Positions 1,333-59,800 of a stretch of 64,000 nt of DNA are shown here, piece after piece. Every line of letters starts with the position of its first letter. Position 1 is the first letter of the stretch. Source of the DNA: Dichotomocladium elegans. Its lineage: Eukaryota > Mucoromycota > Mucoromycetes > Mucorales > Lichtheimiaceae. The position numbers and the translations under genes are program-made. A model generated the notes under the pieces. That model had not been told where the DNA came from, ran no database searches, and worked only from the letters and a program-made list of their open reading frames with translations. The stretch lies in NCBI GenBank assembly GCA_025716815.1, contig JAIXMN010000007.1, positions 947,501-1,011,500 of the forward strand, in the 5' to 3' direction.

Positions 1333-2200
1333 ATACATAAATTAAAGTCGTACCCAGTCAGTTCTGAAGTCGCAGGACTACAAAAATAAAAGTCGCGTTT
1401 TGCCCAGAAATCTTTACGCATGATGACAAAGCAAATGTCGCATGCACAGCGAAAGATGTCGGTCCAAAAAAATTGGCAAATCCATCTCTACCCATTTACA
1501 TTCTGAAATGAGCAATCTATTTTTTTACGATGGTCAAGGCCACGTCGTTGATGTAAGAAATGTACTCTCTGCAATCCGTTTGTTCTCATACAGAATATCT
1601 GCGCAGCATATCTTGCAAAGATAACTCTGAGCTTACTGCCACGCACATTCCCAAGAGAAAGGATACAGACATTCGGATGAAAGAAGCGGGGATCAAGCGC
1701 AGTACACAGCGTACACTGACCAAGACAAGGTCAGATTTTTCAAGCTGATGTTTGAGAAGGTATTGAGTGCATCAGCTGCTGCAAAACAGCTAGGAATCCA
1801 TGTTCGTTCAGTTCAGCGACGGGCATCACAGTACGAAAAGGACCCTGACAGCATTTTTAAGAAACGTAGAGGCAGAGGTCGTTCATGTATTCTATTTAAG
1901 ACTGGTTGATGAGAAATCCGTCAATTGTCCTAGAGCAGCTGATGGAGCAACTCCTCCAGAGATTTGAAGGTCTAAAAGTATCCAAAACTCCATCGATTTA
2001 TGAAAAATGAATGCAACTTGTCATTGAAAATGGCTTTGTTTCAGCCTGTAGACAGGAATAGCGATGCAAAGGTCCAAGAACGCCTTGACTGGGTGCGCGA
2101 TGGGACACATGACCGACATCGACTTTAGAAAAAACTGCGTTTTTCTTGATGAGTCTGGATTCCATATTAACATGAAGCGCAGCATGGCATGGTCCCAGAA
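1333..2200 (+). mobile_element. Tc1/mariner-type element, decayed copy A
   Basis: Starts with the subterminal sequence shared with the copies at 4.4 kb and 55.6 kb (AAAGTCG, then a repeated ATGTCG motif), just after a (TATC)n run at about 1313-1331. The transposase N-terminus is readable in pieces: MSNLFFYDGQGHVV at about 1508, the helix-turn-helix region with AAAKQLGIHVRS at about 1777-1812, and FRKNCVFLDESGF (first catalytic Asp region) at about 2125. Several frameshifts and stops break it. The similarity stops after a KRSMAWSQKG-like segment near 2200, where sequence resembling a Fanzor C-terminal tail begins. Catalytic Asp 2 and the Glu are absent. Compared with copy E this is a 5' two-thirds remnant, and it cannot encode a working transposase. 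Confidence 0.8.
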
Positions 2201-2345
2201 AGGTTTCGGCGAGCACCTGCGGGTGGTGACAGGCGTCTAGCAAGAAGGACTAGATCACCAGAGCCCGACGAGCGAAGGGTGAGACCAAGAAGACCAGGAC
2301 GAGGTCGCCAACAGCGATGAGTTTCCGTGTCGGTTATCGCCGGCA
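2196..2345 (+). pseudogene. Fanzor C-terminal tail remnant (Arg/Pro-rich)
   Basis: Translating here gives an Arg/Pro-rich tail (RSPEPDERRVRPRRPGRG) followed, one frame over, by FRVGYRRHTSGY. The same two blocks in the same order (RPHSPESEQRNVRSQ..GRPRRARSGRS, then FRVSYRRRTHDY) follow the zinc-finger region of the better preserved Fanzor at 51.3-52.9 kb. The link is my own comparison of the two loci. No nuclease domain remains here. It directly follows a truncated Tc1 transposase in the same orientation, as at the 51 kb locus. Confidence 0.55.
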
Positions 2346-2377
2346 CACATCTGGATACCTTCGGGGTAAGTTAAAGT
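2322..2377 (+). other. Conserved stem-loop motif, copy Y
   Basis: TTTCC, then a 7-bp stem (2327-2333 GTGTCGG with 2340-2346 CCGGCAC, one G.U pair) closing the loop TTATCG (2334-2339). This is followed by ACATCTGGATACC and the block TTCGGGGTAAGTTAAAG, which can itself fold (TACC..GGTA). It matches the motif at 52942-53000 and the reverse-strand motif at 2804-2858, with different stem sequences but almost unchanged pairing. It lies at the end of the Fanzor tail remnant. It could be a guide-RNA scaffold fossil or a structured transposon end. Confidence 0.6.
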
Positions 2378-2803
2378 GTTGGGGAAGGGACATAATTTTT
2401 CCCCACTTGCGAAATTTAAGCTTAGTCCCAAGACACTTGCCTTGTCATACAGTAATGTGACCATATATGTGTGTACGAATATCAAGGACGCATTCCAAAA
2501 AGATTACCAAAGTCATTGTAATAAAAATATGTCAAATTCTTCTGCCCCGACCATCCCTTCTGTTATCAACTCATTCAGCATTCAAAGGTGAGAAACCGAC
2601 TTATCGACGAAGATTGGCAGGACCATAGCGTTAACGACTATGTCGAGTCTGTGAGCGCACAATTTGGGAGCACATAAAGGCTACATCCATGTTCCAATAA
2701 TAATAGCGATACTGACCACGCTGTAGGAATATTACTTTATAAAAACATAAAATTTGTCCCATGCCTATCCGTTAGTCAACAGAATATATGCCCTCTTCTT
2801 ACT

Positions 2804-2858
2804 CTTCAACTTACCCCAAGGGTAGCTAGGTGTACCATTGCGGTAACAATGGCGGAAA
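2804..2858 (-). other. Conserved stem-loop motif, copy Z (reverse strand)
   Basis: On the minus strand: TTTCC, a 7-bp stem (2853-2847 GCCATTG with 2840-2834 CAATGGT, ending in one G.U pair), loop TTACCG, then ACACCTAGCTACCC and TTGGGGTAAGTTGAAG. It faces copy Y tail to tail, with about 430 bp between the two GTAAGTTRAAG ends. I see no Fanzor coding remnant upstream of it on this strand, so it may be a stand-alone, non-autonomous end. Confidence 0.55.
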
Positions 2859-2885
2859 GGGGAGGGAAGGAAGGAGCCGAAGCTG

Positions 2886-3236: not shown

Positions 3237-4477
3237 GCACATCGATATCCTCGACACTCGACATATTTAGCGACATCCTCAGCCTTATGGATAGGTGCAT
3301 TATTCATTACCAAATAATGGCCCTTCATATGTTCATACTTATCCATCTCATCCATTGTAGCCGTAAGGAAGCTGAGATAATGTCCAGTTACAGTTCCTCT
3401 GATCATATCTTCAGATTGACCTGTCCTCTTTCTTCTTGATTGTTGGCTGCGGGGAGTCTCAAGCAACATTTAATGATCCCTGATGTTGAGATTGCTCCCA
3501 AGATTGTGGTTGTCTTTGCTCTTGTCTTTGGTATTGTGACCACTGCAGGGGTCCCTTTGTTGAACCATGCCATGCTGTGTTTCATATTAATACGGAATCC
3601 AGCCTCGTCAGGAAAGAAGCAGTTTTTTCTAAAAGTCAATATCGGTCCTGTCCCATCTGCGCACCCAGTCAAGGCACTCTTGGATCTTCGCAGCACTATT
3701 CCTGTCTACAGACTGAAGCCGAGCCATTTTCAATGACAAGTTGCATTCGTTTTTCATAAATCGATGGAGCGTCGTTTTAGATACTTTGAGATCCTCAAAT
3801 CTTCGAAGCAGTTGCTCCATCAGCTGCTCTAGAACAATGGATGGATTCTCATCAATGCATTCTAAAATAAAGCTCTTATGCTCTTCGTTGAGAATACGCC
3901 AACGACCCCTCGCTTTAGGCTTCTTAGAGATGCTGTTAGGGTCTTTCTCGTACTGTAATGCTCATCGCTGGGCTGAAACGAACATGGATTTCCTAACTCT
4001 TTTGCAGCAGCTGATGCACCTAAAACCTTCACAAACATCAGTTTGAAAGATCTGACCTTGCCTTGGTCAGTATATGCTGTGTAACCGCGCTTGATCCCCG
4101 CTTCTTTCATCTGAATGTCTGTATCCTTTTGCTTGGGAATGCGTGTGGTAGTAAGATCAGAGTTATCTCTGCAAGATATGGTGCGCAGATATTCAGTGTG
4201 AGAACAAACGGATTGCAGAGAGTACGTTTCTTCATCAGCAACATGACCTTGGCCGTCTTCGTAGAAAAATAGGTTGCTCATTTCAAAAGAGAAAGAGTCA
4301 AAAGGACGAATTTTTATAGAGATAGATTTGCCAAGCTTTATTGTGCGACATGTTTCCGTGGATACGTGTGGCATTTGCTTTGTCATCATGCGTATTCTGG
4401 GCAAAACGCGATTTTATTTTTGTGATCCTGCGACTTCAGAACTGGCTGGGGTGCGACTTTGATTTTGGAAAATGGTG
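3113..4477 (-). mobile_element. Tc1/mariner-type element, copy B (inactive)
   Basis: The right end is clear: the outer sequence on the minus strand is CACCATTTTCCAAAATCAAA, bounded by a TA dinucleotide at 4478-4479, as expected for Tc1/mariner insertion. The transposase reads on the minus strand in four frame-shifted pieces: 4404-3862 (N-terminus, MSNLFFYEDGQGHV, HTH), 3820-3629 (VSKTTLHRFMKN), 3696-3403 (FFPDEAGFRINMK, first catalytic Asp) and 3469-3113 (HYLVMNNAPIHK and PPYSTELNPIKQ). In the family the second and third catalytic residues lie in DNAPIH and NPIE; here they are Asn and Lys, so this copy is dead even apart from the frameshifts. The left end near 3113 is not defined. Confidence 0.85.
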
Positions 4478-35296: not shown

Positions 35297-38200
35297 TTAA
35301 AATCCTCCAAAACCTGGAGGGACCATCGTCGTCGCCCCTGTCGGTGCCGCTGTCAGCATTAATGGATTACCAAGCCCGGGTCCTAATGATGGCATTGGTG
35401 GAACTTTTGTGTCCGAGAAAAAACGATACGTTAAAGGACGTGTGACACTAGTGGTGTTCCATAAATCAATCATACCATTGGTTTCTTCTTGCTCCTTTTT
35501 CTCGGTTAAAATCTTGAGTTCTTCAACATCATTACCCAAGCTCTTGATCTACTAATCTCATTAGTCTTTGAGGTCCCCGGAGCATCGTTCCATCGAAAAA
35601 AACAACTTACCCTGGTGGACTGTTCATACATTAGGTTGATCAAATAGGGCATTGCAAAGTCCTTAAGGTTGTTGCGCCATGCAAGCTCAATGACAACATC
35701 TGGGCGCATAAGGTCATAACAAGTATACAGCATAGCAGCAAAACATTCTCGCTTGCCAACTTCGATAAAGTATCGCAGCAACTCCTCCGCAATGTCCCTG
35801 TCATGCGACTCAGCTGCCGTCTCCATTGCATCACGGAACAGTCGGTCTTGCTTGGATAATGCGATAGACTGGCGCCAGCGGCGGTTCTTCTTGTACAAAT
35901 GCGCTGCAATGCGCCTGAATTCCAAGAGTTCATGTGTTTCCAGGCGTTTGGCAATATCCATCTGATCAACGTTGTTATGCTGATCAATCGAATCACGGAG
36001 CGCGATATAATTCTCTTCTTCTATATGCAGCTCGTTTAGCGCGCTGTTCACAGCCTTGTTATTAATCTAAAGGAACACGATTAGCCCAGATTTTCCATTT
36101 GGCTCTTTTCCAATTTTTCGAGCCACTTACATGTTGGATGGAGATCAGATAGGGCTGGATGAGAGGAATATTATCGGAACGTTCGAATATCTGGACAACG
36201 CGCGTATGGTTGATGCGGGGGACCATAACCGTAAGGAGATCATTTAGAAGTAACGGGTGCTCGTTTAAGTAGAATCGTATAGCCTTGTAGTAGAGTTCGA
36301 CGTTCGACACCTTGACGATAATATCCTTGAACGCTGCATGTTCCCAGCATGTGGATGCATAGTCCATCAGCGTATTAGCAGCATTATCATGCTCCTCGTA
36401 CTTGACGTACAGATAGGCGAGTTCGCGCCAAAGATGCGCTTTGGTACACGCACGGATGACCTTTGGGATATTGATCCGAGATACATATACCCGAATGTGC
36501 TCCATCAGTTTCTCAGGCGCATATTCTGAGTAAAGGACAGCAAGCTCTGTAAACATGCCCATGTGTGCACGTTCAAGATTTAGACCCGCCTCTAGGAGAG
36601 AAACGAGCTGCTCGAAATACCCATTGTTCTTGTACGACTTTATCACTTGCTCCAGCTCCTCAGCATGCACAATGATATGAAGGCCGCAGATCTGTGCCAG
36701 CCGGAATTCACGCTCTTGAATGCAGACATAGTTGACCTCCTTCCATACTCGGGTACTGTTGGCTTTGCGAGCGCAGTCGACAGCACCCTGATAATCTTTG
36801 AGGTGCACTAGCGTTGTGGCTAAGCTCGCGTAGTTGGAAATGCTGGTATACAAAATCTTCGCAGCCTCAAGCATATGCGCCTGGAAGCATCGGTCACCTA
36901 CTTCCTGTACATGGGCGATGTTGGGAGTAGAGATGAAGTCTTCGAGGTCAGTCAGTCGCTCCGTCTTTGCATAGGCATACAACAGCTCCGTTTCGATATA
37001 GGGTTCACGCGATTGCTGGCGAGCCAACTGAAGATATCGTACAAGATCATCGTACCCTCCTTCCATCTCGGCATAGCGGGTCACCTCCATGTAATTGGTC
37101 GTGTCCTTTGCTCGGATATAGGAATCTTAACGTGATAGGTAAGTATGCGCCATATCGTTTATTTCTGTACAGTTCACTTTACCGATAGCCTCCTTGATGT
37201 GCATGTGATCTAGCTGCGCTTTGGCAAGCTTACTCCACACATCGGATTCATCGCATCGCTCGGCGTATTCATACGCACGATCCAAATCTCCAATCTTGTC
37301 AATAAGCACCGCTATCGCATTGCCGTTGACATTGTACTTTTTGAAAATGGAAAATGCTTCCTCGAAGAGACCCTCGCCGATACACACTTCTGCGACATCT
37401 GGAGCGTCAAAATTATCAAGGCGTGCAATATAATCCATCACCTTTGATGGATCCGCCTAGTATTTGCGAACAATTTTAGATATCTGTCAGGAACAATGTG
37501 TGAAAGACCAACCCAGGTACTAACCTTCACAGCTGTGAAGATAAGGAGATTCTGCAATGTCTTATGATCACTGAATGGACTATCCTCAAGCACAATACGC
37601 TCCAGAAGTTCAATGAGTTCCATAGGCAGATCGGCATTCATAAACGCCTTGACAGTGACCGATACATCCTCGGGATCGGTGGATTCTGGAAGGGCAGTCG
37701 CCACGATCTATTATAACGGGTCAGTGTACGTGTTTAGGTTCTGCCTGGTTTTCCAATCCTTTTTTCTATACCTGATCAATCAATTCGCGTCGGTTTTCAG
37801 TGTCTTCGTTCAAAACGAATTGCCATAAAGACATGTCGCGACGATGAACCAAGTAGCGCGCTTGATGCTTGAACATCCCATTTTCACTCGTAATATGGAT
37901 CAGCTCATAATCACATTGCCCCTTTTCATAACAAATATAGGCCAAAGTCGGATCGCGCTTCTCGCAGTATTTGCCAATAACTCTAGGATCATAGAACTAT
38001 TTATAGAAATGTTAGTGCAGTGACCAATACTGCGGATTTAATTATTTTACCTCATTGTCTTTGAGGAATGGTTCGGGATTGTTGTTGGTATCGATGTAGA
38101 TCTTCGCAAGTGCATTGTAAACTTCTTTGTCCGTGCTTCCGTCAGTCACTCGCATGTTCAACCAAGGGAGTAGAAGCTTCAAGTTGTTGCGCTGCTCAAC

Positions 38201-50924: not shown

Positions 50925-51289
50925 ATTACGCCCTAGCCGTTCAGGAGTCGCAGAATCACAGAAATTGAAGTAGGATTTTGCTCATAAATCTTTATGCGTG
51001 TCGACAAAGCAACTGTCGTACAAAAAATCTTCCATCTCGATATCCATTTTACTTTCTGAAATGAGCAGTCTATTTATTTACGAAGATGGGCAAGTTCATG
51101 AGGTTGATAAGCATGGCTGCCCCGAACCTATGGACTATGCCGTTGAAGAGAAAATGCACTCTCTTCAATCCGTTTGTTCTCACGCAGAATACTTGCGTGG
51201 TCTATCCTGCAGGGGTATCCCTGACCTTGCTGATAGTATAGCCCCAAGGAAAGGATTGAATAATATTTAAATGCGCCTTGGACAACAGC

Positions 51290-52920
51290 TTCGTGTTATC
51301 AATGTCGTTCTGAATCTTCGTCAGCGAAAGCCCACCGCAAGCGGGAACTAATCGCGCAGGGGCATTCCCCTGATAAAGTACGCCAGAACCTTTATGAAAT
51401 ATCACCCGGCGTTCGACAGGATTCAAGATTGCCATTGCTCATTGAGGTCTTATGAGGGGAGATACACCTACCGAGCCTGCGTTTCTTCGGGAAGCATACG
51501 ATATTATAAAACTTGGTTTGAACTCATGCTCCCGGAACTACCAGTTTCAGCACCTGAGCATCTACTACGACGGCAAGGCCCGTCCCGATAAACATCTCGA
51601 CGCTTTCTTTCAGTTCACTTGCGTCTGTGAAGAGCATGTGATACACGGGTTCAACCGTTTTCCACTTCGTCGGTCGTGGTCACCATGTTACACGGAAATC
51701 GGTACCAAAATCCTCTGCTACCATATCCTTGGGTGCAAAATGGAATCTCACATAAGCAATATGGAGTACTGGAGACGAATTCCAAACCTGAAGTTTAAAA
51801 CTTTCAAGCCCCAGGAGTCCGAGCTGCTCCAATTTCGTGAGACTATTCACATCGACGGCGTCGGTGTTAGTGTTGAAGAAAACAAATGGCCTTCAATATG
51901 GTTTTGGACAGCGGTTGGGATCCAGAAAGAAGATTTCGAGTATATCACTCCACAGATAAGCTGGAATGAAGATCATATAGGCCGGTGAGTCACAGTTGAT
52001 CCTGGCAGAAGGAGACGTGTTACGTTGTATCATGATAATACTTCATCCGATAACCACCAAATCTTCTGCTATACAGAGTAGCTTCAGCATCATACACGAA
52101 AGACCAACTGGTACCGCGGGTTGAGAGAACGGGTCGAAGTATAGCGGCCTGAGTGCTGCTGGTCGAACAGTTTCCACCTCAATTCCAAAGTCGTACACTT
52201 TCCATACTCGACTACGAGGGATACCTCACTGCCAAGAACCAGATCTCTACGCGTCTCAAGACTTTCTATGCAGCAACCACAACGAACCACCTGGATCCCA
52301 ATTTCCATTTCGAAAACTTCGCCTGTCCGCATTTTACAAGGAGGAATAAGCTGATAACAAGCTCCTCGACTCTATGAACGCGAAGTTTAGAAGTAATCCT
52401 ATGTTCGTGATGGGAAATTGGCCTTCGCCAAATACCAGATATCCCGAGCCTATCCGCAATGTAGGCTTTCGGAGGCTGTCGAAGAAGAACAAATGTGTAT
52501 TTAATGATCGACTACAAAACCAGCAAGTGCTGGCCCACCTGCGGTAACGAGTCTCTCACTACTTCAAAATGATGCCTAATCCACGCCCATATCAACGACC
52601 CAACAATGCAGTCACCCTCTGCCATGGCCAGCTTCGATATGAAGTACTACCAAAATATGTATATTTTTCCAAAACTTTCCAATCTATTGATGTTTCAATA
52701 GACGTTCAAACCAAAACTGTAAAGAGGTTTGACAGAGAGCGTTCGCAAACCAAGGTTATGGAATCGGGATCTCATCGCAGCAGGTTTCAGAGAGAAAGTA
52801 CTGCATAAGCGTCTGCAGCTCGTGGAAGGCCACACTCACCTGAATCAGAGCAGCGGAATGTGAGATCACAGCGGGCAATGCCAGGAAGACCACGGCGTGC
52901 ACGCTCAGGCCGATCGAGAC
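51290..52920 (+). pseudogene. Fanzor (eukaryotic TnpB-like RNA-guided nuclease) relic
   Basis: Segments in Fanzor order across all three frames: FPLRRSWSPCYTEIGTKILC (about 51660-51718), HIDGVGVSVEEN (about 51850-51885), VTVDPGRRRRVT (about 51988, RuvC-I with the catalytic Asp), an alpha-helical stretch with SRTLSILDYEGYLTAKNQIS (52190-52250), LLDSMNAKFRSNPMFVMGNW (about 52362-52420) then NTRYPEPIRNVGFRRL, and YKTSKCWPTCGNESLTTS (about 52510-52563), the first half of the zinc finger. A second half (NNAVTLCHG) follows. The position of the alternative catalytic Glu before YKTS reads Asp. At least four stops or frameshifts make it non-functional. The C-terminus is Arg/Pro-rich. The family binds an omega RNA and cuts DNA. 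Confidence 0.75.
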
Positions 52921-52941: not shown

Positions 52942-53000
52942 TTTTCCGCGTCAGTTATCGCCGACGCACTCATGATTACCCACAGCCCTTAGGATAAGCC
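52942..53000 (+). other. Conserved stem-loop motif, copy X (possible omega-RNA scaffold fossil)
   Basis: TTTTCC, a stem (52948-52952 GCGTC with 52963-52967 GACGC, plus an A.C mismatch and an inner G-C pair), loop TTATCG (52955-52960), then ACTCATGATTACCC and a diverged CCCTTAGGATAAG. It matches copies Y and Z near 2.3-2.9 kb with different stem bases but kept pairing. It lies directly 3' of the Fanzor coding remnant and about 165-220 bp inside the right transposon end, where omega RNAs of this nuclease class are normally encoded. The RNA role is inference. Confidence 0.55.
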
Positions 53001-53094
53001 CTTTTCCGTCAGAAGAACAGTGTGTAAATTCACAGATGTGATGAAGGAGTACCATACCTTAATCCATGAATGCGAAATCTTTTTACCTGTTGAT

Positions 53095-53222
53095 ATGTAT
53101 TCCCTCACGTAGTTTATACGCCATTGAATTTATCTGGTGTATGAACTTTATTATGGAAAATAAAGTATGCGTCATACTGTATTGTCCGTCCATTGAAATT
53201 TCTTTTTTTGGAAAATAAAGTA
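53095..53222. repeat. Right-terminal repeats of the composite element, two in tandem
   Basis: GGAAAATAAAG followed by TA occurs at 53155-53167 and again at 53210-53222. The first is preceded by TATGAACTTTATT, giving an inverted pair of termini (CTTTATT..AATAAAG) 20 bp across. Subterminal ACGCCATT matches 42409-42416. The second copy ends 118 bp before the uL15 start codon. Confidence 0.65.
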
Positions 53223-53339
53223 CGACTGATGCGGATGAACCCCGCTCACGCTTGAACACTTCGACGGCGGAGTTAGAAGACACACACAGAAGGCTTCACG
53301 AGCGCCCACTGGTCGATTTCTCCCTCTCTTGTCGACAAT

Positions 53340-54113
53340 ATGGTGAGTCCTGGAAAGGAAGGGGACAGGGACAGAGGGCAAGGCATGGCGAGAGGTGAAT
53401 GGATAGATAAATGGATGAATGAAAGGATGGATGGATGGATGGATGAGGACACAGCATTTTGGACTTTCTTGAAGAGTTCGTCCTTTTTTGGGATACAATG
53501 ATCATGGAATTACGATGGCTCACAGTAAAATTGACTTGCTATTCTATAGCCTACTAGACTCCACCACAACAGAAAGAAGCGTGGACACGTTTCCGCCGGT
53601 CACGGTCGTGTTGGTAAGAATATCTTGTAATCGCATGGTAATCGTTATTGTCTGAGGTGTAACCTCGATGACACTTTTTAGGCAAGCACAGAAAGCATCC
53701 TGGTGGTCGTGGTCTTGCTGGTGGTCAGCACCATCACCGTATCAACATGGACAAGTACCATCCTGGTTACTTCGGTAAGGTCGGTATGCGCCACTTCCAC
53801 TTGAAGCGCAACCAGTACTGGAAGCCTGTCGTCAACCTTGACAAGCTCTGGACCTTGGCTGGCGAGGGTGTCCGTGAGAAGTACAAGAACACCGAGAAGG
53901 TCCCCGTCATCGATGCTTTGGAAAATGGCTACGCTAAAGTCTTGGCCAAGGGCAGCATCTCCCAGCCCGTGATCGTCCGCACCCGCTTCGTCTCGCGCCG
54001 TGCTGAGGAGAAGATCAAGAAGGCTGGTGGTGGTATGTATGACGAATACAACAAGGAATCTTTAGTTATGATTGTCTCATTCTTTCCTGATAGTTGTGGA
54101 ACTTATTGCTTAA
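53340..54113 (+). CDS. RPL28: Large-subunit ribosomal protein uL15 (yeast Rpl28, human L27a)
   Basis: Exons 53340-53342 (only the ATG), 53550-53613, 53682-54032 and 54094-54113 give 145 residues beginning [20 protein letters not shown] and ending AGGVVELIA, the usual ends and length of the eukaryotic protein. [20 protein letters not shown] and [20 protein letters not shown] are family hallmarks. A first coding exon holding just the start codon is common in ribosomal protein genes. The first intron contains a GGAT-type tetranucleotide repeat (about 53396-53446). The protein sits near the peptidyl-transferase region of the 60S subunit. The promoter is short because a transposon end lies 118 bp upstream of the ATG. 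Confidence 0.97.
53396..53446. repeat. GGAT-type tetranucleotide repeat in the uL15 first intron
   Basis: Imperfect (ATGG)n tract within the 207-nt first intron. Confidence 0.85.
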
Positions 54114-55637: not shown

Positions 55638-56892
55638 CACTATTTTCCAAATTTAAAGTCGTGCCCAGCCAGTCCTGAAGTCGCAGGATTACAAAAATAG
55701 AAATTGCGTTTTGTCCAGAAATCTTTACGCATGATGACAAAGCAAATGTCGCATACACGGCGAAAGATGTCGCACAAAAAAGCTCCATCTCTATAAAAAT
55801 TAGTCAGCATTTTGCACTATGAATCCTATTCTTTATACCCATTTACATTCTGAAATGAGCAATCTATTTTTTTACTACGATGGTCAAGGCCATGTCGTTG
55901 ATGAGCGTGGCTGTCCTGAGCCAATGGACTATGTCGTTGATGAAGAAATGTACTCTCTGCAATCCATTTGCTCTCATACAGAATATCTGCGTAGCATATC
56001 TTACAAAGATAACTCTGAGCTTACTGCCACGCACATCCCCAAACGAAAGGATAGAGACATTCGGATGAAAGAAGTGGGGATCAAGCGCAATTACACAGCG
56101 TACACTGACCAAGACAAGGTCAGATTTTTCAAATTGATGTTTGAGAAGGTATTGAGTGCATCAGCTGCTGCAAAACAGCTAGGAATCCATGTTCGTTCAG
56201 CTCAGCGATGGGCATCACAGTACGAAAAGGACCCTGACAGCATTTTTAAGAAATGTAGAGGCAGAGGTCGTTCATGTATTCCCAATGTAGAACATAAGAG
56301 TGCTATTTTAGAATGGGTTGATGAGAATCCGTCAATTGTCCTAGAGCAGCTGATGGAGCAGCTGCTCCAGAGATTTGAGGGTCTCAAAGTATCCAAAACG
56401 ACCCTCCATCGATTTATGAAAAATCGAATGCAACTTGTCATTGAAAATAGCCCGGTTTCAGCCTGTAGACAGAAATATCGATGCAAAGGTCTAAGAACGC
56501 CTTGACTGGGTGCGCAGATGGGACATGACCGACATCGACTTTAGAAAAATCTGCGTTTTTCTTGATGAGTCTGGATTCCGTATTAACATGAAGCGCAGCA
56601 TGACATGGTCCAAGATCAGGCATCATTAAATGTAGCTTGAGGCTACCACAACCACCAGCAAAAAAAAAGAAAAAGATTGGGACAGTCCATTGCTGCAAGC
56701 AAAGGAACTGTAAATGGACACTATCTCAGCTTTCTTAAAGCTACCATGGATGAAAAGGATAATATTTTCTGTTGACTAACGAAATCTCCTTTCCTATTGA
56801 TATGACAACTTTATACAGTTCTATGCGTTATTTTTTGCACTTTGTACGACATTATTTTATCTTGTTCACGACATTTTTTTTTGAAAATAAAG
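55638..56892 (+). mobile_element. Tc1/mariner-type element, copy E (most complete ends)
   Basis: Flanked by TA at 55636-55637 and 56893-56894. The left terminus is CACTATTTTCCAAATTTAAA and the right terminus, read inward, CTTTATTTTCAAAA; these are imperfect inverted repeats with ATGTCG-type subterminal repeats on both sides. The transposase runs 55819-56505 (MNPILYTHLHSEMSNLFFYY; HTH with SAAAKQLGIHVRSAQRW at about 56159-56209; second helix block VSKTTLHRFMKN), then shifts frame near 56430 to MTDIDFRKICVFLDESGFRIN, and stops at MTWSK near 56610. The part with the second Asp and the Glu is deleted, so 1.25 kb remain and the copy is non-autonomous. Confidence 0.88.
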
Positions 56893-56894
56893 TA

Positions 56895-59800
56895 CCATAG
56901 GTATGACACTTGCCATTTCAGGCACGCTGTCGAAAAACCTCGGGCCTAGCACTCCGCAGATAACGATCTGGATACTAGTTTACACTGACGAAAGCAAAGC
57001 AAAATATTATGTTGACATTTAAATAAGCCTGCTGCTACAGAACATATATATGTCGGCTCATTCAAGGCTGTAGAATCGCATCCACTAAAAGAAGTTTGAT
57101 ATTATATTTTACTATTATAAGATGTAGAAGCAGCGGTCGTTCGCTTATCTTAAACAGCATTAGATCACTATTTCCAATGGGAAGACGGGGGGCATCATTT
57201 TTCAGGAATGACTGATAAAAGCGCGGTGCGCTTCAGAAAAATAAGCGCGGAGACTCGCCAAAAAAGGGAAAAACGACTGCTTCATCTACTTGAAAACCAT
57301 AATGTATTCGAAAATAAAGGTTCATGAACTCTGTAAAGAACGGATGTAACTTAGTGATGTAGAAGTTTCAGCTATGTACATCATATATATTATTACCTTA
57401 TCTTATTAATCGCTCTCCAAAATGTAGGATTGAGAAAAAAAGGTGAGAATGCATGAGGTAAATTAGCATTCAATACTCTGGGACGGTGCTCTTCGGACCA
57501 CCGGTCTGCTGCTGGTAAGCACGTGCTATCTTTCGCACGTTAGCTGAGAATGGCTTAAAGGAAATCTCTTGCTCAGTCAGATACAATTTGGCTGGACATC
57601 TGGATCAAACATGGTAGTCCAATTCATCCGCATTGATTAGATAACATTATTAAGGACATGTATTTGGCTATAGTTAATACTTCTGCCATATATACTTCAG
57701 TGCAGAGACATGCTGTACCATAAATTCTTACAACTGAAGAATTTTGTTCTTCATTTTATTTAGTTTTCGCGACATTTAAACGTCACTTTACCATGCCACT
57801 TAACGGCATTACAAACACTCCCACAAAAAAAAATGACGATAATGATTGCGATCTAGTATCGACGAAGGCCAAAAATCAGCAGGGGCATGGCGTGTGAGAA
57901 CAGTCAGTGCCACTGTCAACAAGTACCTGGATGCTAATCAAACGACTGCCAAACTACCCACTAGACGCCCAAGTCTGCCCATCGACAGATATGTATACGC
58001 GCCACTTGATCCGCTTCGTTGAATGAGATCCATTTGAGTCTTACCATGTCTATCGTGCAGACCTTCCAAATGAAGAAGTAAGCATAAACGCAATTACGCG
58101 ACCGTTGAAAGATAAAAGCTTTTTCTTCCTGTAAACCCACCATGAGCCTTCCCTGACTGACAAATCAAAGCATATTAGACTTGAAAGGGCTACAGTAGAG
58201 CTTTAACCGAGTATGGTAGCGTGGAAGGCAGTGATTTCATCTGACGAATGTAAGTTGCTATTAAATCATATGAACGAGAGTACCAGGGCCAAGAGAAAGG
58301 CGGGAGAGAGGGTTGAGGATCGTTCGAAGCGAGATGGGTAGCTCGTTGAAAATCCAAGGCGGTGTGGGCCACGGCAATGTCTACTATCTCAGCGATAATT
58401 TTCTTCCAAAACTCTATCAATCGCCAGAAGGGCATGGGAGGGTTAATCTTTCAAGAGGACGGAACCAGCTGTTTTTCTGGCTGTTATGCGTCCTGGTATA
58501 CGAATAAAGCTGGAGCCAAAGGTTTTGACATCTCGCTAATTCAAAATCCATATTTAACGCACTGAGCAACTTCGGGACATTATGTGCAATCAAATCAAGA
58601 CGAGGAATCACATCGTCATTATTGTTGGATGAGAAACCTGCTGTCCATAAAAATAGCATAATATACCCCAGGGATGTCGTTGCCAATTTTGTGGATATAC
58701 AGCCACAAATATACTAAGAATCATACTGTAGTTTCCCTGGGTACAATCAGCGCTCGATATATTGAAATACTCTGTGGGAGCAGGTATCGTACGGTGAAGC
58801 GAACATTTGGTATAACAATTTATTTGCCACTAGACCTGCATAACAAGTGGAGGTATGTTTAACCGATGCTCAGAAGAAGTAGATCCGTGTTTATTTAGGA
58901 ACACTACTGCAATTAGAGAGAAAGCTCAGGATCCTTGCTAACTGGTCTAAGGAGTAATTTAAACACGCAAAGCGTCGTAGTGTTACCACGATTAGTGACA
59001 TCCGTAAGATGGAAGACAAGCTGATCAGGCCCTGCAATTTTCCATTCTGACCCGCTTCGACGTGGCTGCTAGAAGGAAAAATTATTATCCACCAAGGACG
59101 CCCAAAAATTTAAGAATTCTGGCTGGTTTTCCACAAAGCAATAAAGCAGAGGTATATTTATGCATTTTTATAGGTTATTTCCTACACTGAAACAGTTGGG
59201 AAGTTCATTTGGATTTCGTTTAGAGAATTACCGAAAGTTGCCTGCCCACAAAATGCGTGGATGCAGAATTCATTCGGTATAGCGGATTTTCGGTGTAGCG
59301 GCTTCCGTCATAAACAGCGCTGACTGTAGTAATACCGGCTATTGAGAAATTCAGCAATGATTGATATATGTTCCAAGTTTGTATTCATTATGAAAAAGGC
59401 TTTCTTAATTAACTTAACATGTAGAAGAACCGCACTGCTGAAGAATGATGAAGGACAATAATGTAAATATTTGAATATAGAGGATTATTACTTATCCCAC
59501 AATATTCTCGACTTCATTACATGTGCACACGTAGAATATGGGGCTGAAGAAAGTTACACTCAAAAGCATGTGATGAAGGATAATGGTTTCGGGGGACTAG
59601 TTTCTTACCACGTTGATAGTGACATTGCCTCATTTGCGTTAGACGAATGAGTCCTATGCCTTACCTTTGGGCGTAATTGATGTTGTTGATGTTAAAAGTT
59701 AAAAACAGCAAACACCTTACATATAAAATAAACGTCGCGTATTTCTATCATAATTGCTATCTGTCATGACATTTTGTGTATCTTGCGGTCCGAGGAGGAT

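Follow-up and report, generated by a model that had tools for sequence, protein, structure and literature searches.

A predicted spliceosomal intron between a Fanzor1 omegaRNA scaffold and the last base of its Tc1-like transposon in Dichotomocladium elegans

A hairpin found three times in the window (the whole stretch of 64,000 nucleotides analysed) is, judging from its sequence and position, almost certainly SL1 of the omegaRNA scaffold of a Fanzor1 nuclease carried by Tc1 transposons. Between the scaffold and the transposon's terminal AG there is probably a spliceosomal intron, predicted from splice signals, and the guide is likely to be completed by the spliceosome: the 3' splice site would be the last base of the transposon, with the scaffold fused to the host flank and the element's own insertion site as the target. 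The TA at the junction would then be used twice, closing SL2 in the RNA and serving as the target-adjacent motif in the empty site. New here are the position of the scaffold end, which directly adjoins the predicted 5' splice site, and the presence of the hairpin in lineages that lack a Fanzor (C and K).

The places given for the motif in an earlier note on this DNA (copies A, B and C below) are confirmed: TTTCCN7TTAYCG matches the window exactly at 52943 and 2322 on the plus strand and at 2858 on the minus strand, and nowhere else. Their arms pair at 6/7, 7/7 and 7/7 positions, the 20/21 claimed, the exception being an A.C mismatch in copy A. The downstream ACNNCTNGNTACC, which had been ascribed to all three, is present in copies B and C, and copy A departs from it at two positions. 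A covariance model run on the window places the three copies at the top (E 5.2e-7, 7.9e-6 and 2.4e-6; next match 0.56), its training set having included the window copies or near-identical ones. At the gathering score, Rfam gave no matches to curated RNA families in the window, and searching plasmids with a host gene was likewise without result. Recognizable parts of the elements are:

1790..2204, plus strand: Tc1 transposase remnant of the copy-B element
2185..2320, plus strand: end (~137 nt) of a family-B Fanzor gene, joined through an internal deletion to a piece of Tc1 transposase
2321..2346, plus strand: copy B leader and SL1, 7/7 pairs
2347..2365, plus strand: copy B linker and SL2 region (ACATCTGGATACCTTCGGG)
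2366..2372, plus strand: predicted 5' splice site of copy B, GTAAGTT, the element having lost its branch point and right end
2733..2734, minus strand: TA target-site duplication of copy C, the predicted guide being next on the minus strand
2735..2814, minus strand: copy C predicted 80-nt intron (GTAAGTTG ... TTGACTAAC ... TATAAAG), ending at a probable right end
2815..2833, minus strand: copy C linker and SL2 region (ACACCTAGCTACCCTTGGG)
2834..2859, minus strand: copy C leader and SL1, 7/7 pairs
3328..3976, minus strand: Tc1 transposase remnant of the copy-C element
51256..52883, plus strand: decayed Fanzor1 upstream of copy A, matched in pieces by tblastn of a 709-aa Fanzor
52942..52967, plus strand: copy A leader TTTTCC and SL1 (7-bp stem, TTATCG loop), old, with one A.C mismatch
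53022..53033, plus strand: copy A counterpart of the family-A 5' splice site, decayed to GTAAA
53150..53167, plus strand: right transposon end of copy A, ...GGAAAATAAAG followed by TA
53207..53226, plus strand: right end repeated 55 nt beyond the first, again ...GGAAAATAAAG and then TA
56179..56896, plus strand: related Tc1 remnant without SL1, with a branch-point block and right end; a derivative

Copy A is an old Fanzor element with two right ends, in which both the gene and the 5' splice site have decayed. The Fanzor remnant (63% identity over 256 aa plus other pieces, E 1e-147) and the right end at 53150..53167 lie on either side of its hairpin, as had been claimed for the 53 kb copy. The further claim that two copies directly follow Fanzor C-terminal remnants holds for the one at 2322, where ~137 nt are fused through a deletion to a transposase fragment, and fails for the one at 2804-2858, before which none was found. 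Copy B is a mobilised deletion derivative whose internal junction is common to another element (L021), and copy C is a Fanzor-less element with one AG in its tail between branch point and end. None of the three looks active, and the copies appear to be decayed or Fanzor-less derivatives. The 56 kb Tc1 was considered as a Fanzor-free control and rejected, since it retains the branch-point block and is therefore a derivative. The doubled right end beside copy A lies just upstream of a ribosomal-protein-like gene (~53330-54040, by eye).

Across the genome (39.4 Mb in 122 contigs), TTTCCN7TTAYCG has 231 matches (133 plus, 98 minus) and the reversed pattern has 57 (27 and 30), so that perhaps a quarter of the 231 are due to chance. 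Copies were sorted into lineages by stem sequence (A, GCGTCAG/CTGACGC; B, GTGTCGG/CCGGCAC; C, GCCATTG/CAATGGT; D, GGCCCTG/CAGGGTT; K, GTCCCGG/CCGGGAC; and further lineages F and G), with a leader and loop that are near-invariant throughout the family. A selected alignment of 28 rows is 90.3% paired, against 64.0% when shuffled and 32-50% when slid; it omits 11 of the 39 distinct 27-mers, seven because they have 1 to 6 paired positions (L003, L005, L011, L013, L026-L028, L043, L048) and four because they differ from a kept row in the first base only (L015, L066, window copies B and C), and it retains four rows in which no more than 4 or 5 positions pair. The covariation test was therefore redone on all 39, non-pairing ones included: 230/273 stem positions are paired, whereas exchanging arms between 27-mers gives 166.7 on average, and none of 10,000 swaps reached 230. 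Among seven lineage representatives, 47/49 stem positions pair (arm permutation mean 34.0, with 2/5,040 as high). Covariation in the stem, noted earlier from three copies, is strong across the family. One repeat with the stem TTCTCCG (L026, L027, L028), whose arms pair at 2/7 positions, was counted as a chance match; it is a separate dispersed repeat containing TTTCCTTCTCCGTTATCG, with non-pairing arms, and lies outside the hairpin family.

The hairpin is found just 3' of Fanzor1 stop codons, the leader TTTTCC in family B following the stop codon directly. A Fanzor C-terminus lies no more than 1.5 kb upstream on the same strand at 34/99 motif places (of the 100 listed), as counted with 58 of the listed Fanzor protein matches; by stem, the listed places give 22/27 for GCGTCAG and 0/4 for the non-pairing TTCTCCG. 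In the reverse direction, 14/20 Fanzor 3' ends selected by protein bear SL1 according to the covariance model, the 20 having been chosen by group, not randomly, and the hairpin of one (L083) having been known beforehand. The covariance model found no hairpin in the six of these 20 that belong to lineage H (L071-L075, L086). Lineage H, which has no recognizable right end in the 380 nt examined, possibly represents a different kind of transposon or copies that have become fixed in the host. The hairpin also occurs in elements that have no Fanzor, namely lineages C and K and deletion derivatives, and among 20 right ends without a canonical motif listed nearby, nine have the K hairpin and two the C hairpin by eye.

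In family A (L049, L050), a protein of 709 aa is obtained by joining a 639-codon frame to a second exon across a predicted 69-nt GT-AG intron. Its best match among solved structures is PpFz1 (E 1.1e-129), with SpuFz1 at E 2.8e-52; there are 108 database matches, the named ones mostly from Mucoromycota and Zoopagomycota (Mucor, Rhizopus, Syncephalis and Coemansia among the genera), and in Pfam a weak match to Cas12f1-like_TNB (E 0.058, below cut-off). Visible by eye are IDPGRRDLLY (the DPG RuvC signature), TSKCCPVC...CHGLLRCTNQNC (a C4 zinc finger) and RLWNRDLAAALN (the terminal RD motif), motifs as defined in a figure legend of PMC10711439 and the abstract of PMC3627910. Homology to solved Fz1 proteins and these motifs identify the predicted product as a Fanzor1. 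In PpFz1, the two matched stretches are separated by about 93 residues that the predicted protein lacks, probably the FRI domain. A 737-codon frame with one internal TGA recurs in at least 16 rows among the listed Fanzor matches, L049 and L050 included; in these two the TGA falls within the predicted intron. Family-A Fanzor copies look intact, with many that are near-identical in the genome. The Fanzors of D elements have 23-50% identity to those of A over matched pieces, and the hairpin is the same.

The host elements can be assigned to Tc1/mariner-like transposons with TA target duplications. A full family-B element (best seen in L019) of ~4.3 kb carries a Tc1-like transposase, the Fanzor gene and the hairpin in that order, starting with CAGTGTTTTCC after TA and ending with ...TTTGAAAATAAAG and then TA. 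A partial transposase frame of 227 aa gives matches that stay below the family cut-offs to DDE_3 (E 8.3e-6) and HTH_32 (E 3.4e-5), and the terminal inverted repeats are short and imperfect by eye. TA is present at 38/38 right flanks, the search pattern having required it. The 38 distinct flanks have T at position 3 in 30 and A at position 4 in 29, a bias that points to a TATA insertion preference. The base before TA is A, giving ATA, at five left ends (L016, L019, L020, L049, L050), with some uncertainty over the boundary in L049 and L050. One right end, TTTGAAAATAAAGTA, has 263 exact copies genome-wide (reversed control, 0). L049 and L050 are near-identical and apparently recent, with an intact-looking Fanzor and a transposase match of 38 aa; given so short a match, family A may need transposase in trans. 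In lineage K, CCCGGTTATCGCCGGGA has 60 exact copies genome-wide (e.g., L094, L096, L097, L100, L106; reversed control, 0). Two K elements (L111, L112) have transposase remnants and no Fanzor of their own, L112 including a reversed Fanzor fragment; the hairpin and splice signals are retained in most copies of the lineage.

The omegaRNA is the best reading of the hairpin because it lies 3' of the stop codon, has the 7 bp of solved Fz1 scaffolds, covaries, and is placed between the gene and the right end that adjoins TA; the suggestion in the earlier note of an omegaRNA scaffold belonging to a Tc1-borne Fanzor is supported on these grounds. In the available text of PMC11423790, SL1 is always 7 bp in the omegaRNAs of GtFz1, SpuFz1 and PpFz1 and is bound by the same protein surface; PpFz1 has the smallest of the three scaffolds, with an SL2 of 4 bp and an omegaRNA of 75 nt. 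Here too the hairpin is followed by a second helix downstream. The same note allowed for a structured DNA end, and the hairpin might in that case be such an end, or a transposase-binding site of Tc1, and have no role as RNA. Its presence in Fanzor-less elements (C, K) would agree with this; the idea is disfavoured, and highly improbable, because the hairpin lies ~90-275 nt inside the right end and is absent by eye from several right ends of the family (L098, L099, L103, L109, L110), while its stem length and position match SL1 of Fz1.

In 11 representatives, picked as better-kept copies, the second helix is immediately followed by GTAAG (A, B, C, G, K, M, N) or GTGAG (D, D', F1, F2), lineages A, M and N having two candidate splice sites from which one was chosen. 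Copies without GTRAG at the scaffold end include L004, L011, L015, L025, L034, L040, L091, L101 and window copy A. Downstream are CTAAC-type branch points (TGACTAAC, TGACTAAA or TGCTAAC), followed by a tract of ~65-130 nt that contains hardly any AG and ends, at the last base of the transposon, in an AG abutting the TA. SL2 and TA are about 70-210 nt apart in the DNA, where scaffold and flank are not contiguous. In a fungal intron, ~65-130 nt would be a long way between the branch point and the terminal AG, and the AG found right after CTAAC in A and K would be too near the branch point for use.

Right ends for counting tails were located by four fixed end sequences; 62 distinct ones were collected, and setting aside five without a branch-point match left 57 tails. 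Ends outside this count include those of L008 and L068, with one AG each, L025, with none, and L002, for which no end was matched. GTRAG occurs no more than 130 nt upstream of the branch point in 49/57 tails, and 50/57 are AG-free from two bases past the branch point to the terminal AG. By lineage, 28/29 are AG-free in A, 6/6 in B, 4/4 in D, 7/8 in K, 0/1 in C and 5/9 among unassigned tails. The A tails, 3,503 nt in all, contain one AG against 215 GA, and equal lengths upstream contain 260 AG. Since the copies are related, the fair numbers are those per family, and here shuffling gives the scarcity of AG a P of 0.013-0.043 in A (with the AG next to the branch point counted in) and 0.003-0.004 in D'; in B it is 0.028 for full-length tails, 0.09 for the short tail of L020 and 0.54 for that of L068. 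When an A tail receives an equal number of random substitutions, an AG-free outcome has P 0.10 for B-like, 0.33 for K-like and 0.04 for D'-like tails. Conserved parts of the intron in A, B, C, F, G and K may reflect common descent. D alone looks clearly different between the 5' splice site and the branch point; D and D' have the 5' site and TGCTAAC in common, with an intervening stretch that differs in length and has no obvious likeness by eye. By our estimate, common ancestry cuts the independent tests to roughly two to four, and the depletion of AG is a good but not overwhelming signal once ancestry is counted. The first intron base is G in 54/56 K copies, the TAA following it having been fixed by the search pattern. 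A candidate for a retroposed, spliced family-B scaffold (GGATACCTTCGGGTA) was rejected: its single place in the genome, C13:861713, is L018 minus one base and is not spliced.

A further clue comes from the linker between the two helices, which has UA (UG in D') 5-18 nt after SL1 in 10/11 representatives. The two bases past this UA pair with the last two exon bases in 21/22 cells, and both sides vary between lineages. With representatives chosen by the authors and the register set by eye, swapping gives a mean of 11.9 and 0/20,000 as high; taken three deep, the pairing is 28/33 against 19.2 (9/20,000). The linker UA would face the splice junction, and the TA of the target duplication would pair with it. 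With TA included and a hyphen at the junction, SL2 would be UACC/GG-UA in B and C, UACU/AG-UA in D, UACUC/GAG-UA in F1, UAACC/GGU-UA in G, UAACUC/GAGU-UA in K, and UAA/UU-UA in A, with a C.U mismatch beyond. TA is thus predicted to close SL2 after splicing in most lineages. In GTGAG lineages a UA is available through splicing only; in the seven GTAAG representatives the intron's own GUA could replace TA, with a bulge. A ranking of all 16 dinucleotides was discounted as circular because the register had been set at UA. In a register-free test, TA reaches 50 (shuffled mean 35.4; 5/5,000 reach 50), second to TG at 58 via G.U. Minimum-energy folds are mixed, with a TA-closed SL2 in the spliced fold of 5/9 representatives, B using only the U. 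Fold energies show no preference for spliced RNA, the unspliced form being lower in 7/9 representatives, in a comparison where the flank was masked in the spliced form and the energies are not strictly comparable. With its TA, the spliced family-B scaffold is 47 nt; the PpFz1 guide would start near nucleotide 47 as well, because its guide segment C50-C58 comes after a heteroduplex of 3 bp (from the available text of PMC11423790).

If these signals are used, transcription would cross the Fanzor gene, continue past the right end and enter host DNA, a transcript of a ghost element being an alternative source of the RNA to be spliced. The scaffold (~45-90 nt) would stop at the 5' splice site, and the intron would extend to the transposon's terminal AG. 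Splicing would take the constrained transposon end out of the RNA and connect the scaffold with TA and the host flank, which would become the guide, and the TA duplication would complete SL2; unspliced family-A RNA would instead read on through ...AAAATAAAG. After trimming, the spliced product would bind Fanzor. The guide would match the DNA beside TA, which would make the empty site the target: the loaded Fanzor could cleave beside TA, in the empty donor site or on the sister allele, favouring recopying of the element, as the biology of TnpB suggests. Fanzor-less elements (C, K and deletion derivatives) could supply omegaRNAs in trans.

Does the guide need an intron at all? One possibility is a contiguous omegaRNA, with a scaffold of ~120-300 nt running through the right terminal repeat and a guide after TA, the splice-like signals being due to chance or ancestry. 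There is precedent in SpuFz1, where a scaffold of 75 nt extends across the right inverted repeat and a guide of 14-15 nt follows (available text of PMC10432273), and the unspliced folds are at least as stable as the spliced ones in 8/9 representatives. Such an RNA would leave unexplained both the GTRAG at the end of SL2 in 11 representatives and the scarcity of AG ahead of the terminal one in A, B, D and K, and would fit the length of the 75-nt PpFz1 omegaRNA only with the tail removed; it is possible, if rather unlikely. Alternatively, the intron could be part of the Fanzor mRNA's 3' UTR or of chimeric transcripts with downstream host genes, guide production being incidental or separate. Identical splice signals would serve, and the predicted 69-nt coding intron of the family-A gene means that Fanzor transcripts would meet the spliceosome in any case. 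This is quite improbable, however, given a 5' splice site that abuts the SL2 helix, an acceptor flush with the target duplication, where a guide must begin, and a lineage (K) that keeps the hairpin and splice signals and, in the two elements examined, lacks its own Fanzor.

Introners, like the elements described here, are transposable elements that bear splice signals. They turn into host-gene introns (PMC9860276), whereas the intron proposed here would finish a guide RNA. The closest solved protein to the family-A Fanzor, PpFz1 of Parasitella parasitica (PDB 9CF0-9CF3; PMC11423790), has an RNA resembling the one predicted, with a 7-bp SL1, one short SL2 before the guide and a similar scaffold length once the predicted intron is removed, and its TAM, 5'-ATN, fits the ATA at five left ends; the word intron is absent from the available text of that paper, and an intron is what is predicted here. 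As in SpuFz1 and ghost Spu-1 of Spizellomyces (available text of PMC10432273), the omegaRNA would lie between the stop codon and the right end and take its guide from the variable flank, and many Fanzor-less copies of ghost Spu-1 retain the RNA region, as do lineages C and K. The SpuFz1 scaffold is contiguous through the inverted repeat, in contrast to the intron-like gap of ~70-210 nt here; contiguity of scaffold and flank in the DNA, described for SpuFz1, may not define all Fz1. In IS607 TnpB, a fixed target base by the right end belongs to the scaffold, not the guide, a part that TA would play here; that system is bacterial, with a contiguous, unspliced RNA and a serine-recombinase transposon (available text of PMC10711439), unlike the present one. 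Bao and Jurka (2013; PMC3627910, in its available text) described Fanzor1 alongside a Mariner transposase in elements with terminal repeats and TA duplications, as here; in that text the word intron is absent and a guide RNA undescribed, and both are proposed here. The circular isoforms of archaeal IS200/IS605 omegaRNAs (available text of PMC12558985) are a case of ends altered by RNA joining, as would be the case here, through circularisation as opposed to spliceosomal joining to a flank. A literature search for Fanzor or TnpB with splicing or introns, covering titles and the beginnings of abstracts (most subscription journals and bioRxiv being outside its coverage), gave no description of a spliced omegaRNA among the papers listed.

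If guides are completed by the spliceosome as proposed, this would explain how a TnpB-like nuclease can reside within transposons whose ends cannot double as a guide scaffold, and would be a case of spliceosomal splicing producing an RNA guide. The role of Fanzor in eukaryotic transposons would become testable via a single RNA-seq junction, and the arrangement suggests a way to find omegaRNAs missed when the scaffold is expected to abut the end of the transposon. The near-identical, intact-looking Fanzor copies, together with Fanzor-less elements bearing the same RNA, would offer a natural system for the use of guides in trans. Elsewhere in the window, 36062-37090 on the minus strand is a clathrin heavy chain fragment, its five best database matches being 74-83% identical.
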